Source: Gordonia sp. PP30 (GTDB taxonomy: Bacteria; Actinomycetota; Actinomycetes; Mycobacteriales; Mycobacteriaceae). Taken from it: 64,000 bases of DNA. The notes below the pieces were generated by a model, which worked only from the letters and a program-made list of their open reading frames with translations, was not told the origin of the DNA and searched no databases. The stretch lies in assembly GCF_023100845.1 (NCBI RefSeq), contig NZ_CP095864.1, positions 3,844,001 through 3,908,000 of the forward strand, written 5' to 3'. Both the position numbers and the translations under genes were made by a program. This document shows, piece after piece, positions 9,491 through 39,066 of the stretch. Numbering within the stretch: position 1 is the stretch's first letter; every line of letters begins with the position of its first letter.

Positions 9491-10477
9491 TCAGACCGTG
9501 TCGTACTCGCTGATCAGCCACTGATCGCCGTGCTTCACGAAGTTCATCCGCATGCGCGGCGTGTCGCTGCCGGTCGGCGTGCCGTCGGACGTACTGCTCA
9601 TGATGAAGCCGATCAGAACCGTCGCCTTGTCCCCGGACAGGTTCTCGACGCCGAGGGTGTCGGCATGGCAGTCCATGCCCGCCTTGCCCTGGGTCACCAG
9701 CTTGCGGCTGGTGGCCGCGTAGTCGTTCAGGTTCTTCAGTGCGGTCCCGGTGAGCGCGGCGCGCGCGTTCTTCAGGCTGTCGTCGTACTTGTCCCACTGA
9801 TAGGTGAACGGGGCGCAGGCACGTTTCGCGGCCTGCGACATCAGCTCACTGGTCTCGCCGTTGTCGAGGAACGCCTTGTTGCTGTTGACCGGCGGCGAGC
9901 CCGGATGGAACGCCAGTACCGCCGCGATCGCCCCGACCACGGCCGCGACCAGCCAGAACGTGACGGCGAGCGACACCGACTTCTCGTTGTCACGGGTCGG
10001 CGGCTGCTTCGCCGCGCGCTCGGCGGCCTGGTCCGCCGCGTCGCGGGCCTCGGCGCGGGCCGCCGTCAGATCCACGGTCTCCTCGCGGATCCGCGACGTC
10101 GGCGCGTTGCTGCCCCGGGCCTCGCGGATCTTCGCGGTGGCGGCCGCCGAATCCCGCTTGGCGTCCGGCGACGCGGTGTCGTCGCCGCCGGGCCGAGTGA
10201 GCGAGACGGCGGTCTCCACGATCGCGGTGTCTGCGCCGGCCGGGGCCGGACCGTTCGCGGCACCGGCGGACGGGGCGTCCTCGGGAAGCGGGTCGCCGGA
10301 TCGCCGGATCACCATCTTCGGCACGTTCGAGGCAGCGCTCACCACGACGGTCGCCACACCCGCGGCGTCGTCGCGCGGCTCGGCACCGCTCGCCGCGACG
10401 GTCACGTCGTCCGCGGTATCCTGGTCGGCCGGGGCCGGATCGGTGGGCGTCCTGTCACTCATCTGCTCGTCGCTCAT
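9491..10477 (-). CDS. Mce-associated membrane protein (last gene of mce operon)
   Basis: 328 residues. Residues 1-165 form a low-complexity, Ala/Asp-rich cytoplasmic region with many charged residues. One membrane segment follows (VTFWLVAAVVGAIAAVLAF, about 172-190). An outside domain of about 135 residues resembles the NTF2-like/Mam fold of Mce-associated proteins and has two Cys (CAPFTY and MDCHAD) that could pair. Mam proteins stabilise Mce complexes in mycobacteria; the exact partner here is unknown. The start overlaps the preceding stop (TGATG), which implies translational coupling. Two hairpins follow. Placement as the eleventh gene of the operon supports the call more than sequence similarity does. 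Confidence 0.75.
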   Translation of the reverse strand: MSDEQMSDRTPTDPAPADQDTADDVTVAASGAEPRDDAAGVATVVVSAASNVPKMVIRRSGDPLPEDAPSAGAANGPAPAGADTAIVETAVSLTRPGGDDTASPDAKRDSAAATAKIREARGSNAPTSRIREETVDLTAARAEARDAADQAAERAAKQPPTRDNEKSVSLAVTFWLVAAVVGAIAAVLAFHPGSPPVNSNKAFLDNGETSELMSQAAKRACAPFTYQWDKYDDSLKNARAALTGTALKNLNDYAATSRKLVTQGKAGMDCHADTLGVENLSGDKATVLIGFIMSSTSDGTPTGSDTPRMRMNFVKHGDQWLISEYDTV

Positions 10478-35144: not shown

Positions 35145-35215
35145 GTACTCACCGATCCCTTCGTCTACCTCCGCCCCAGGCGGGGGTCCGCGTGGTCTAT
35201 GCGGATGTCGGGTTG

Positions 35216-35288
<73 letters not shown>

Positions 35289-35447: not shown

Positions 35448-35608
35448 GTGTCGCGTGTCGAAAATTGTTGAATGGTTGCCGTGCGTCAGATGGGCGGCTG
35501 GCAAGGCGGGGGAGGGAGGGATACCGGTAGGTATCCTGACCGACGACAACGCCGCCAGGCGTTCATCTGGCCGCGGCATACCGTCAATGAATTTTCGACA
35601 CGCGACAC
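35448..35608. mobile_element. 161-bp near-palindromic element with 19-bp perfect terminal inverted repeats (MITE-like)
   Basis: The left end GTGTCGCGTGTCGAAAATT (35448-35466) is the exact complement of the right end (35590-35608). Inward of the ends, the two arms stay about 70% complementary for a further ~40 bases, sharing CAGATG and CTGGC blocks. The centre has GGATACC and GGTATCC around GGTA. No frame codes for protein. The right end touches the hadAB stop codon. No clear target duplication was seen. Confidence 0.75.
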
Positions 35609-36702
35609 TAATTGAACTGCACGACGACGGTGGCTCGCCCGAAGATCTTGCGGTCGCCCTGCTTGGCGGTCAGCGCGATGGTGCCGCGGCGCGTCTCCGG
35701 GTCCAGGGCACGGACCTTGCCGGTGAACTCGACCGTCGCACTGTGGTCCTCGGGAACGTAGACCGGGCTGGTGAACCGCACGTTGTACTCGCAGAACGCG
35801 GCCGGATCGCCGACGAACTCGGACACGTAGGTGGCACCGAGACCCATGGTCTGCATGCCGTGCGCGACGACGTCGTCCATACCGCCGGACGCCTTGATGA
35901 CGTGGTCGGAGAAGTGGATCGGATTCGGGTCGCCGGCCACCCCGGCATAGTTGACGAGGTTGCCGCGGGTCAGCAGGAAGGTCTTGGCCGGCAGTTCCTG
36001 TCCGACGGTGAGCGTGTCGAAGTCGATCGCGGCGTACGCGGCCGGGCGGTCCGCCGGATCGGCCGTTTCGTAGAGGCCGCCCTCGCGGTCGACGGTCTTG
36101 CCGGGGTCACCCGCGGCGTCGACCTTCATCATCACGTGCTCGATCGACTCCTCCAGTTCCTCGGGCACCTTGAGGCCGGGGCGGGCGGCGATCGACGTGT
36201 ACGTCGTCATGATCGGCTCGTCGTGCTGATCGCAGATGATGTTCTTGGTGACCATGAGGTCGATGACCTCCGGGCTGGTGATGTGCCGGAACGAGTCCAG
36301 CGACACGTCGCAGATCAGCCGGTCGCCGACCTTCATCGGGCGGTGGTAGACGAGGCGCTGATCGGTCTGCATGATCTGCCACAGGTCGTAACCGGTCACG
36401 ACCTCCTCGAAGAGCTTCCGCTGGGCGATGATGCCCATCACCGAGACGAAGGTCGGATGAGCCACGAGCGTGTCGTGCCCGTACTCGGCGGCGCCGGCTT
36501 CGCTCCAATGCGTGGGATGCGCGTCTTGCACGGCGAGCGCGTGCTTGCGGACCTCTTCGCGGCCGACCTCGTAGTAGTCGTCGACGGTGTAGTGGTAGCC
36601 CACCACCGAGGCCGTGTGCTCGGCGATCTCGTCGGGTGTCAGCTCACCCGATCCCAGCGCGTCCAGTGAGCTCTTGATCTGCTCGTCGTTCAGCTCGGTC
36701 AT
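35608..36702 (-). CDS. hadAB: Fused (3R)-hydroxyacyl-ACP dehydratase HadA/HadB
   Basis: 364 residues, two hot-dog domains in one chain. The HadA-like half (about 25-170) has the FAS1-type N-terminal hot-dog form (ALAVQDAHPTHWSE). The HadB-like half (about 215-360) has the catalytic GDPNPIHFSD motif with Asp and His. In M. tuberculosis HadA and HadB are separate proteins that dimerise; the fusion is known from related genera. The enzyme dehydrates long 3-hydroxyacyl-ACP in FAS-II mycolate elongation. ATG 36702 is favoured over 36705 by spacing to GAGGAG. No hadC follows; a 161-bp element and tRNA-Trp come next. Confidence 0.93.
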   Translation of the reverse strand: MTELNDEQIKSSLDALGSGELTPDEIAEHTASVVGYHYTVDDYYEVGREEVRKHALAVQDAHPTHWSEAGAAEYGHDTLVAHPTFVSVMGIIAQRKLFEEVVTGYDLWQIMQTDQRLVYHRPMKVGDRLICDVSLDSFRHITSPEVIDLMVTKNIICDQHDEPIMTTYTSIAARPGLKVPEELEESIEHVMMKVDAAGDPGKTVDREGGLYETADPADRPAAYAAIDFDTLTVGQELPAKTFLLTRGNLVNYAGVAGDPNPIHFSDHVIKASGGMDDVVAHGMQTMGLGATYVSEFVGDPAAFCEYNVRFTSPVYVPEDHSATVEFTGKVRALDPETRRGTIALTAKQGDRKIFGRATVVVQFN

Positions 36703-36810
36703 CATCTCTCCTCACGCTCGACGCCGGGCGGGAGCGGGCTGTGCTCACGCCCCGGCTGGTGGCAACGAAGCCTGCCAGATTCTGCTACCGGGACGACGCC
36801 GGAAACAAAT

Positions 36811-37680: not shown

Positions 37681-38172
37681 ATGGCTGATTCTTCGTTTGA
37701 CGTGGTGAGCAAGATCGACCGCCAGGAGGTCGACAACGCCCTCAACCAGGCGGGCAAGGAACTCTCGCAGCGCTACGACTTCCGCGGCACCAACACCGGG
37801 ATCGAGTGGTCCGGCGAGGAGAAGATCGTGATCACCTCCGACGCCGAGGAGCGCGCGCTCGCCGGCCTCGAGGTGTTCAAGGAGAAGCTGATCCGCCGGG
37901 ACATCTCACTCAAGGCGTTCGACGCCGGTGAGCCCGTCGCCTCCGGCAAGACCTTCAAGATCACCGGCGAACTGGTCCAGGGCATCGACTCCGAGCACGC
38001 CAAGAAGATCTCGAAGAAGATCCGCGACGAGGGCCCCAAGGGCGTCAAGGCGCAGATCCAGGGCGACGAACTGCGCGTCTCGTCCAAGAAGCGCGACGAC
38101 CTGCAGGCCGTGATCGCGCTGCTCAAGGGCGAGGACTTCGGGATCGCTCTGCAGTTCGTGAACTATCGATAG
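37681..38172 (+). CDS. YajQ-family nucleotide-binding protein
   Basis: 163 residues, full length for the family. Conserved blocks are [27 protein letters not shown] and [18 protein letters not shown], then [15 protein letters not shown] and the C-terminal FVNYR. YajQ proteins have two RNP-like folds; some bind cyclic di-GMP and act with a transcription factor, others bind RNA. The role here is unknown. TAGGCT six bases before ATG 37681, without a ribosome-binding site, suggests a leaderless mRNA. It is divergent from tRNA-Tyr. Confidence 0.93.
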
Positions 38173-38476
38173 GTCGCGGCTGCCCCTGTGTTCGGCGGGC
38201 AGGCCGGGAGAATTTTGTCTTGCTTGTCCTCGCCGCCACGACGCTCGCCGCGAGCGAGCACGCCAGACTCCAGACAAGCGGCTGCGGGGGGCGCTGCGAC
38301 GAAAATTCTCCCGGCCTGCCCTCACGCAAGGGCCAGAGGCCGCTTCGCGGACGCCTGTCGAAGTGACCGGGGTTCGAGACCGCGGCTGCGGAGGGCGCTG
38401 CGACGAGATTTCCGCGGCCCACCCTCCCGATCAAGGACCAGAGTCCGCTTCGTGGACGCCCGGCGAAGTGACCCCG

Positions 38477-39066
38477 CTCCGCACGCTGGTTGAGGTGCGA
38501 CGAGCCCGCTGGGGCGAGGAGCCTCGAAACCAAGCCTCTAGAGACGAGGGCGCCGATACAGCACAGCCGGCGACGGGCGTGGCAGCGTCCGCTTCGTGGA
38601 CGCTCAGCGATGTGACCGGGCTTCGAGACTGCGGCTACCGGGGCGCTGCGACGAAAAATTCTCCCGACCGACCCACCTGAGGGCCGGCGGCCGCGTCGCG
38701 GACACCTGACGAAGCGACCGCTCCGCACGCTGGTTGAGGTGCGACGAGCCCACAGGGCGAGGAGCCTCGAAACCAAGCCTCTAGAGACGACGGCGCCGAT
38801 ACAACGCCGCCGGCGGTGGGCGTAGCAGCGTCCGCTTCGTGGACGCTCAGCGAAGTGACCGGGCTTCGAGACTACGGCTACCGGGGCGCTGCGACGAAAA
38901 CTCTCCCGGCCGACCCACCCGGGGGCCAGCGGCCGCGTCGCCGACACCTGACGAAGCGACCGCTCCGCACGCTGGTTGAGGTGCGACGAGCCCGCTAGGG
39001 CGAGGAGCCTCGAAACCAAGCCTCTAGAGACGAAGGCATCGATACAGCGCCGCCGGCGGTGGGCGT
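38477..39066. repeat. ~243-bp tandem repeat, about 2.4 copies
   Basis: Units start at 38477, 38721 and 38963 with CTCCGCACGCTGGTTGAGG, then GTGCGACGAGCCC, GGGCGAGGAGCCTCGAAACC, AAGCCTCTAGAGACGA, CGTCCGCTTCGTGGACGCTC, and CGGGGCGCTGCGACGAAAA. Units 1 and 2 are nearly identical along their whole length. The third is cut off by a copy of the palindromic repeat at 39067. Each unit contains an opposed pair of dispersed words (TTGAGG and CCTCGAAACC). Confidence 0.88.

Follow-up and report, generated by a model that had tools for sequence, protein, structure and literature searches.

MITEs are normally grouped by their ends, and their interior is treated as filler. Several described families bear comparison with the element analyzed here. 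RUP of Streptococcus pneumoniae is a small MITE that has IS630-like ends and inserts at TA, and it provides a precedent for IS630-ended MITEs, the likeness being one of description (PMC2229807). Unlike RUP, the present family combines one core with the ends of two transposase families and occurs in several phyla. According to the same paper, CIR of Caulobacter and Brucella consists of two hairpin arms joined by a linker, and by this description alone it resembles the proteobacterial two-hairpin elements reported below, while ERIC of enterobacteria is cotranscribed with its neighbours (PMC2229807). ERIC is likewise a MITE, small and palindromic and with TA at either end, and Correia/NEMIS (CREE) of Neisseria is likewise a TA-flanked MITE with long complementary ends.

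The element analyzed here lies in the window, a stretch of 64,000 nucleotides from Gordonia sp. PP30. We think it probable that it is an IS630-ended MITE from a multi-phylum superfamily of ~160-bp elements, one defined by a conserved, strand-specific folded core and equipped with varied transposon ends. The new point, to judge from the sequences compared, would be that a conserved strand-specific core is common to different end types and phyla. The family reverses the usual MITE pattern in that the interior is conserved while the ends vary, to the point of belonging to unrelated transposase families. The initial annotation recognized no named family, and we agree with it, as the best Rfam 15 match over the element has an E value of 0.035, far below the gathering score, and an Rfam search of 24 loci returned one tRNA only. 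In the open literature (subscription journals were not covered) we found no paper that contains the core letters or is evidently on these elements, and the accessible part of a 2024 review (PMC10969869) makes no mention of IS630, Streptomyces, "Actinobacteri" or "conserved core."

The element and its copies in Gordonia

The locus had been described as a 161-bp palindrome with perfect 19-bp ends, foldable over its whole length as one stem around a central GGATACC/GGTATCC hairpin, and this description holds. The palindrome is near-perfect, its coordinates are exact, and its terminal repeats are exact complements over 19 bases (Table 1). Folded as RNA, the 161 nt form a single rod of -112.6 kcal/mol with the GGATACC/GGTATCC hairpin at its tip, as compared with -57.5 ± 3.75 kcal/mol for 200 dinucleotide shuffles, none of which was equally low (z -14.7). 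Open frames cross the element mechanically.

Table 1. Features of the element and its immediate surroundings, in window coordinates.
Feature	Coordinates	Strand	Remarks
Whole element	35448..35608	+	palindromic MITE, 161 bp; + is the core-sense, RNA-like strand
Left terminal inverted repeat	35448..35466	+	bases 1-13 identical to one end of the own-genome IS630 copy L200
Left inner arm	35467..35499	+	complement of 35553-35589
Conserved core, 5′ half	35500..35518	+	GGCAAGGCGGGGGAGGGAG
Tip hairpin	35518..35537	+	covarying
Conserved core, 3′ half	35538..35552	+	GACCGACGACAACGC
Right inner arm	35553..35589	+	
Right terminal inverted repeat	35590..35608	+	
Flanking TA, right side	35609..35610	+	left flank is TT
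Fused hadA-hadB gene	35608..36705	-	adjoins the insertion

The initial annotation had proposed a search of this and related genomes for further copies, and many are present. In the 4.48-Mb genome itself the search gave 23 BLAST rows, of which three are self-complement matches, three come from one coreless palindrome (G000:C1:4272591-4272664) and 17 are core places. Both core halves are present at 16 of these places and the right half only at one (4447769), and some are degenerate. With 40 relatives included, matches were found in 11 of 41 genomes. The own-genome copies form sets that have the same core but differing ends. The element thus has the terminal inverted repeats, short length and many copies of a MITE, and its presence at the hadAB locus differs among relatives as judged by a text pattern for the core.

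Some palindromes that have these ends lack the core or are shortened (L022, which is the coreless palindrome above, L228, L229 and L230). They may be deletion products or core-free elements; because they have the same ends, the core is perhaps dispensable for mobility. Two copies that differ in end type adjoin each other at G000:C1:3523003-3523294 (L011:3004-3295), where they seem to share one CTAG-like site (CCAG). Around positions 3078-3243 of L009, a short sequence near CCCGTTGAGCC is found on both sides of a copy and is possibly another repeat.

Ends, core and distribution of the family

The element end, GTGTCGCGTGTCG, matches the ends of IS630 insertion sequences in its own genome, such common ends being the mark of an IS630-derived MITE. 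Of 59 Gordonia genomes, 24 encode the DDE_3 domain; the own genome has five matches, one of which is named IS630 by NCBIfam. In the two own-genome IS630 loci that were read (L200 and L221), one end is GTGTCGCGTGTCGTTAATTAGT (L200) and the others are off by a few bases. When 28 IS630 loci were scanned, 16 had a GTG-type inverted repeat, 11 had none and one gave a spurious 27-bp match; because TA next to each end was a condition of the scan, its presence there is no evidence.

Another Gordonia subfamily has the same core with the ends of an unrelated IS5-family element. Its end, TAGGGCGTGTCTCC, bounds five elements of ~980 bp (G006) and one of 956 bp (G451); four of these six were read, and two gave protein pieces, which belong to the IS5 family (NCBIfam; Pfam DUF4096 and DDE_Tnp_1). 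The end TAGGGYGTGTCTCC occurs in 14 of the 59 Gordonia genomes. In L224, an insertion sequence of the IS5-family type directly adjoins one end of an IS630 copy, TAG being common to both, so the site used there is of one kind for the two types. With the Streptomyces-type end, an inverted partner was found 100-212 bases away in nine of 14 fetched stretches and none within five mismatches in the other five, and no insertion sequence with that end was found in these 14, since none of the bounded stretches had the length of one. By eye, we recognized no transposase gene beside copies among the ORF clusters in 2.5 kb around them, where each cluster present in at least three loci was represented by the first 200 residues of a single example.

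On sequence grounds we firmly class the element as a MITE with IS630-type ends, a classification that stops short of its mobility and of a clean target duplication. It would be a non-autonomous transposon with resident-IS630-like ends that inserted next to the hadAB stop codon, presumably moved by insertion sequence transposases. The outer ~20 bp would be taken from whichever resident CTAG/TA-target transposon is available, which in Gordonia is of the IS630 or the IS5 type.

The core has the form GGCAAGGCGGNGGAGGGAG-hairpin-GACCGACGACAACGC. Readings of it as a kink-turn and as an attC site were considered by eye and not adopted. In differently ended copies of one genome, the core and right inner arm are more alike than the ends. 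When a copy with IS630 ends is compared with one with IS5 ends from the own genome, the core agrees at 45 of 53 positions, the right inner arm at 21 of 24, the left at 16 of 24 and each end at 13 of 22. A pair of differently ended copies ~580 bp apart in G024 gave 50 of 53 for the core, 19 for the right arm, 15 for the left arm and 11-13 for the ends. These are raw counts from comparisons that allowed gaps. The gradient is consistent with an exchange of ends on a shared core, but a similar picture would result from common ancestry and rapid change of the ends.

An exact core pattern was found at 116 places in 115 stretches of a species-level collection, in actinobacteria and some Clostridia, mostly within ~160-bp palindromes whose arms differ yet are self-complementary. 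By record title, the hosts are Gordonia, Williamsia, Nocardioides, Kribbella, Streptomyces, Actinacidiphila and Streptacidiphilus, and further Actinomadura, Actinoallomurus, Pseudonocardia, Actinocrinis, Propionibacteriaceae and Streptosporangiaceae. The pattern is also present in clostridial MAGs (Lachnospiraceae, Oscillospiraceae and Clostridiales), and three clostridial copies (L114, L148 and L152) have a GC content of 0.49-0.52. Single records may be explained by MAG contamination, yet the clostridial arms differ in composition from those of actinobacterial copies.

Twelve of the 116 places were too close to a contig end, which left 104. Using a border criterion of an end match plus TA on at least one side, 81 of these copies could be bounded, at 157-166 bp with a median of 160. 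TA stands on both sides of 24 of the 104 copies, on one side of 58 and on neither side of 22, the choice of borders having rewarded TA, and a target duplication is weakly shown. We propose that these elements may form a superfamily of ~160-bp MITEs, spread over several bacterial phyla and defined by the core rather than by the ends.

A whole-element covariance model (R1), run with strict filters and with few candidates scored per genome, matched 28 of 396 actinobacterial genomes, and diverged forms are present in other actinobacterial families. Most inspected diverged copies keep GCAAGGC..AACGCNGC and the rod with different arms, L184 and L190 being among the exceptions. Such elements can be found with the covariance models built in this analysis. 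ERIC is not supported as a member, since one E. coli copy scored 3.0 bits with the core model (E 0.44 in 171 bases) and the motif is absent. Correia/NEMIS holds CAAGGC..AACGCNG, a motif loosened after seeing the sequence and held also by 8 of 20,000 shuffles. Against the core model it scores 7.1 bits (E 0.05 in 151 bases), which is not significant, and it was absent at E ≤ 5 in a 66-kb search, so that a link to Correia is only suggestive.

Outside these groups, a pattern match in a viral contig led to unannotated plasmid elements in Citrobacter, Halomonas, Azotobacter and Pseudomonas (L273-L276). In L273, L275 and L276, which were absent from its training set, a second model (R2) found a pair of oppositely oriented hairpins (E 2e-6 to 0.02), and in L274 two opposed hairpins were seen by fold. 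The viral-contig query had no match in E. coli genomes, no window-type element was found in plasmids, and the exact core was not found in viral contigs; compared with phages, the window-type element gave a single match, 29 bases long and within a phage gene (E 1e-3). A loose viral pattern occurred in at least 120 stretches, and of 80 matches scored (L380-L417 being outside this set) L338 alone looked real and the rest had weak stems. In L338, a viral contig, the GC-rich core sits on a hairpin with AT-rich arms near 9897-9947.

Folding, strand bias and competing readings

We aligned 37 cores, chosen for diversity from 44 extracted stretches. In this alignment 87.4% of cells are paired, versus 64.0% after shuffling and 23.5-45.9% for slid structures; 120 cells are changed on both sides versus 38.5, and the covariation score is 0.573 versus 0.171. 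The tip and the inner arms covary. There was no excess over shuffles in the number of pairs with two-sided change (10 versus 9.7) or of further pair types (31 versus 31.6). Fifteen of the 37 were picked by the exact core and all 37 were anchored on AAGGC- and AACGC-like letters, and the invariance of these letters is therefore partly by construction.

The strand test has as its premise that, if DNA alone were important, G.T and A.C mismatches in the arms would be about equal, and the left-right arm alignment scored G.U and A.C alike. Read on the core-sense strand, 43 non-redundant exact-core copies have 201 G.U and 46 A.C mismatches, with more G.U in 39 copies and fewer in one, and in a sign-flip test none of 200,000 permutations was as high; the larger set of 162 from which a count was also made holds some copies twice. 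The bias is strongest at left-arm positions 36-53 (124 versus 10). Sixteen other diverged copies have 74 G.U and 22 A.C (15 with more G.U, none with fewer and one tie), although these came from a covariance model that is itself more tolerant of G.U than of A.C. Nine proteobacterial or viral hairpins gave no asymmetry (six G.U versus seven A.C). We take the G.U excess as a probable sign that an RNA or a single strand folds, and it cannot separate RNA from single-stranded DNA because G.T pairs form in DNA too.

The initial annotation had offered a MITE or a long-hairpin non-coding RNA, and both halves fit. Multiple copies, resident-IS630-like ends and absence at hadAB in 29 of 29 fetched relatives support the first, and the covariation and G.U excess are consistent with a strand-specific folded RNA or single strand for the second. 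Selection acting on one strand, most probably in the form of RNA, would maintain the core and the rod shape. The core-sense strand would presumably be transcribed, and its core may bind a widely conserved partner and thereby protect or regulate the element or neighbouring transcripts. Should the core prove to be a functional RNA, many repeats that now lack annotation would be copies of a single undescribed RNA, and the question of its partner would be open to testing. A bolder version, which we put forward tentatively and think rather doubtful as a whole, is that the core is a structured RNA domain and the true unit of inheritance. It would be a mobile RNA chassis in at least three phyla that swaps ends with resident CTAG/TA-targeting transposases, with each hairpin arm serving to correct the other, by which a new end would be copied onto both sides, with Correia elements among its members and with one conserved cellular partner.

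Hairpins recognized by a recombinase or replication factor are known from integron attC sites and REP hairpins, and the folded strand could be such a single-stranded DNA hairpin and not RNA. The G.T pairing of DNA would allow this, as would the gene context. Of 96 copies, an in-house gene caller could class 87, with five falling within a predicted ORF and four receiving no call; the upstream gene is antisense in 57 and sense in 30 and the downstream gene antisense in 48 and sense in 39, so the copies have no sense preference relative to neighbouring genes. The element ends, however, match DDE-type insertion sequences, whose transposition to our knowledge has no strand-specific single-stranded stage, and no recombinase was recognized by eye in the ORF clusters around copies, which makes this reading unlikely.

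We judge it slightly less likely again that this is an ordinary MITE family in which the palindrome matters as DNA only and the core was conserved through recent spread between species. MITE anatomy, IS-like ends and multiple copies are what such a family would have, but the core is constant while arms differ between genera, also in the three low-GC clostridial copies, the G.U bias is strand-specific, and the tip and inner arms covary. Transcription-linked C-to-T strand asymmetries exist, and the G.U excess might be mutational in this way instead of reflecting selection for folding. This seems improbable given a ratio, counted within arms, of about 4:1 overall and 124:10 at its strongest, and copies in all orientations to genes.

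The hadAB locus

The ORF beside the element encodes a fused HadA/HadB (NF040620, 470 bits), and tRNA-Trp lies at 35215-35288, left of the element. As had been noted, the right end of the element overlaps the hadAB stop codon; one base is common to both, the minus-strand TAG at 35608-35610 consisting of element base 35608 and the neighbouring TA. A role at the 3′ end of hadAB mRNA, which had also been suggested, is unsupported, since the RNA-like strand (+) is opposite to hadAB and a read-through hadAB transcript would carry the element's complement.

A hadAB query matched 59 of 59 genomes, and 30 loci including the window itself were fetched. The proposed comparison of hadAB-tRNA-Trp spacers found no core within 700 bp beyond the end of hadAB in any of the 29 fetched Gordonia relatives (of 58 other genomes), using a text pattern that a strongly degenerate copy would escape. 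Other copies exist and the spacer is not conserved with the element, which leaves the mobile-element reading standing. A local bidirectional hadAB terminator, to which the very stable fold between hadAB and tRNA-Trp might point, is very improbable given the absence from all 29 loci and the many other genomic copies, and the fetched relatives without the element refute it as something ancestral to the locus; the IS630-ended MITE could end transcription as a side effect.

In the contexts read for these 29 relatives, all without the element, hadAB ends with TGA in 26 and with TAG in three (L252, L268 and L270), and the TAG stop here need not stem from the insertion because these three also have it. 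Elsewhere in the window, the translation of a long open frame on the minus strand (38123-39019) contains repeated peptide units, which suggests tandem repeat DNA and not a gene.
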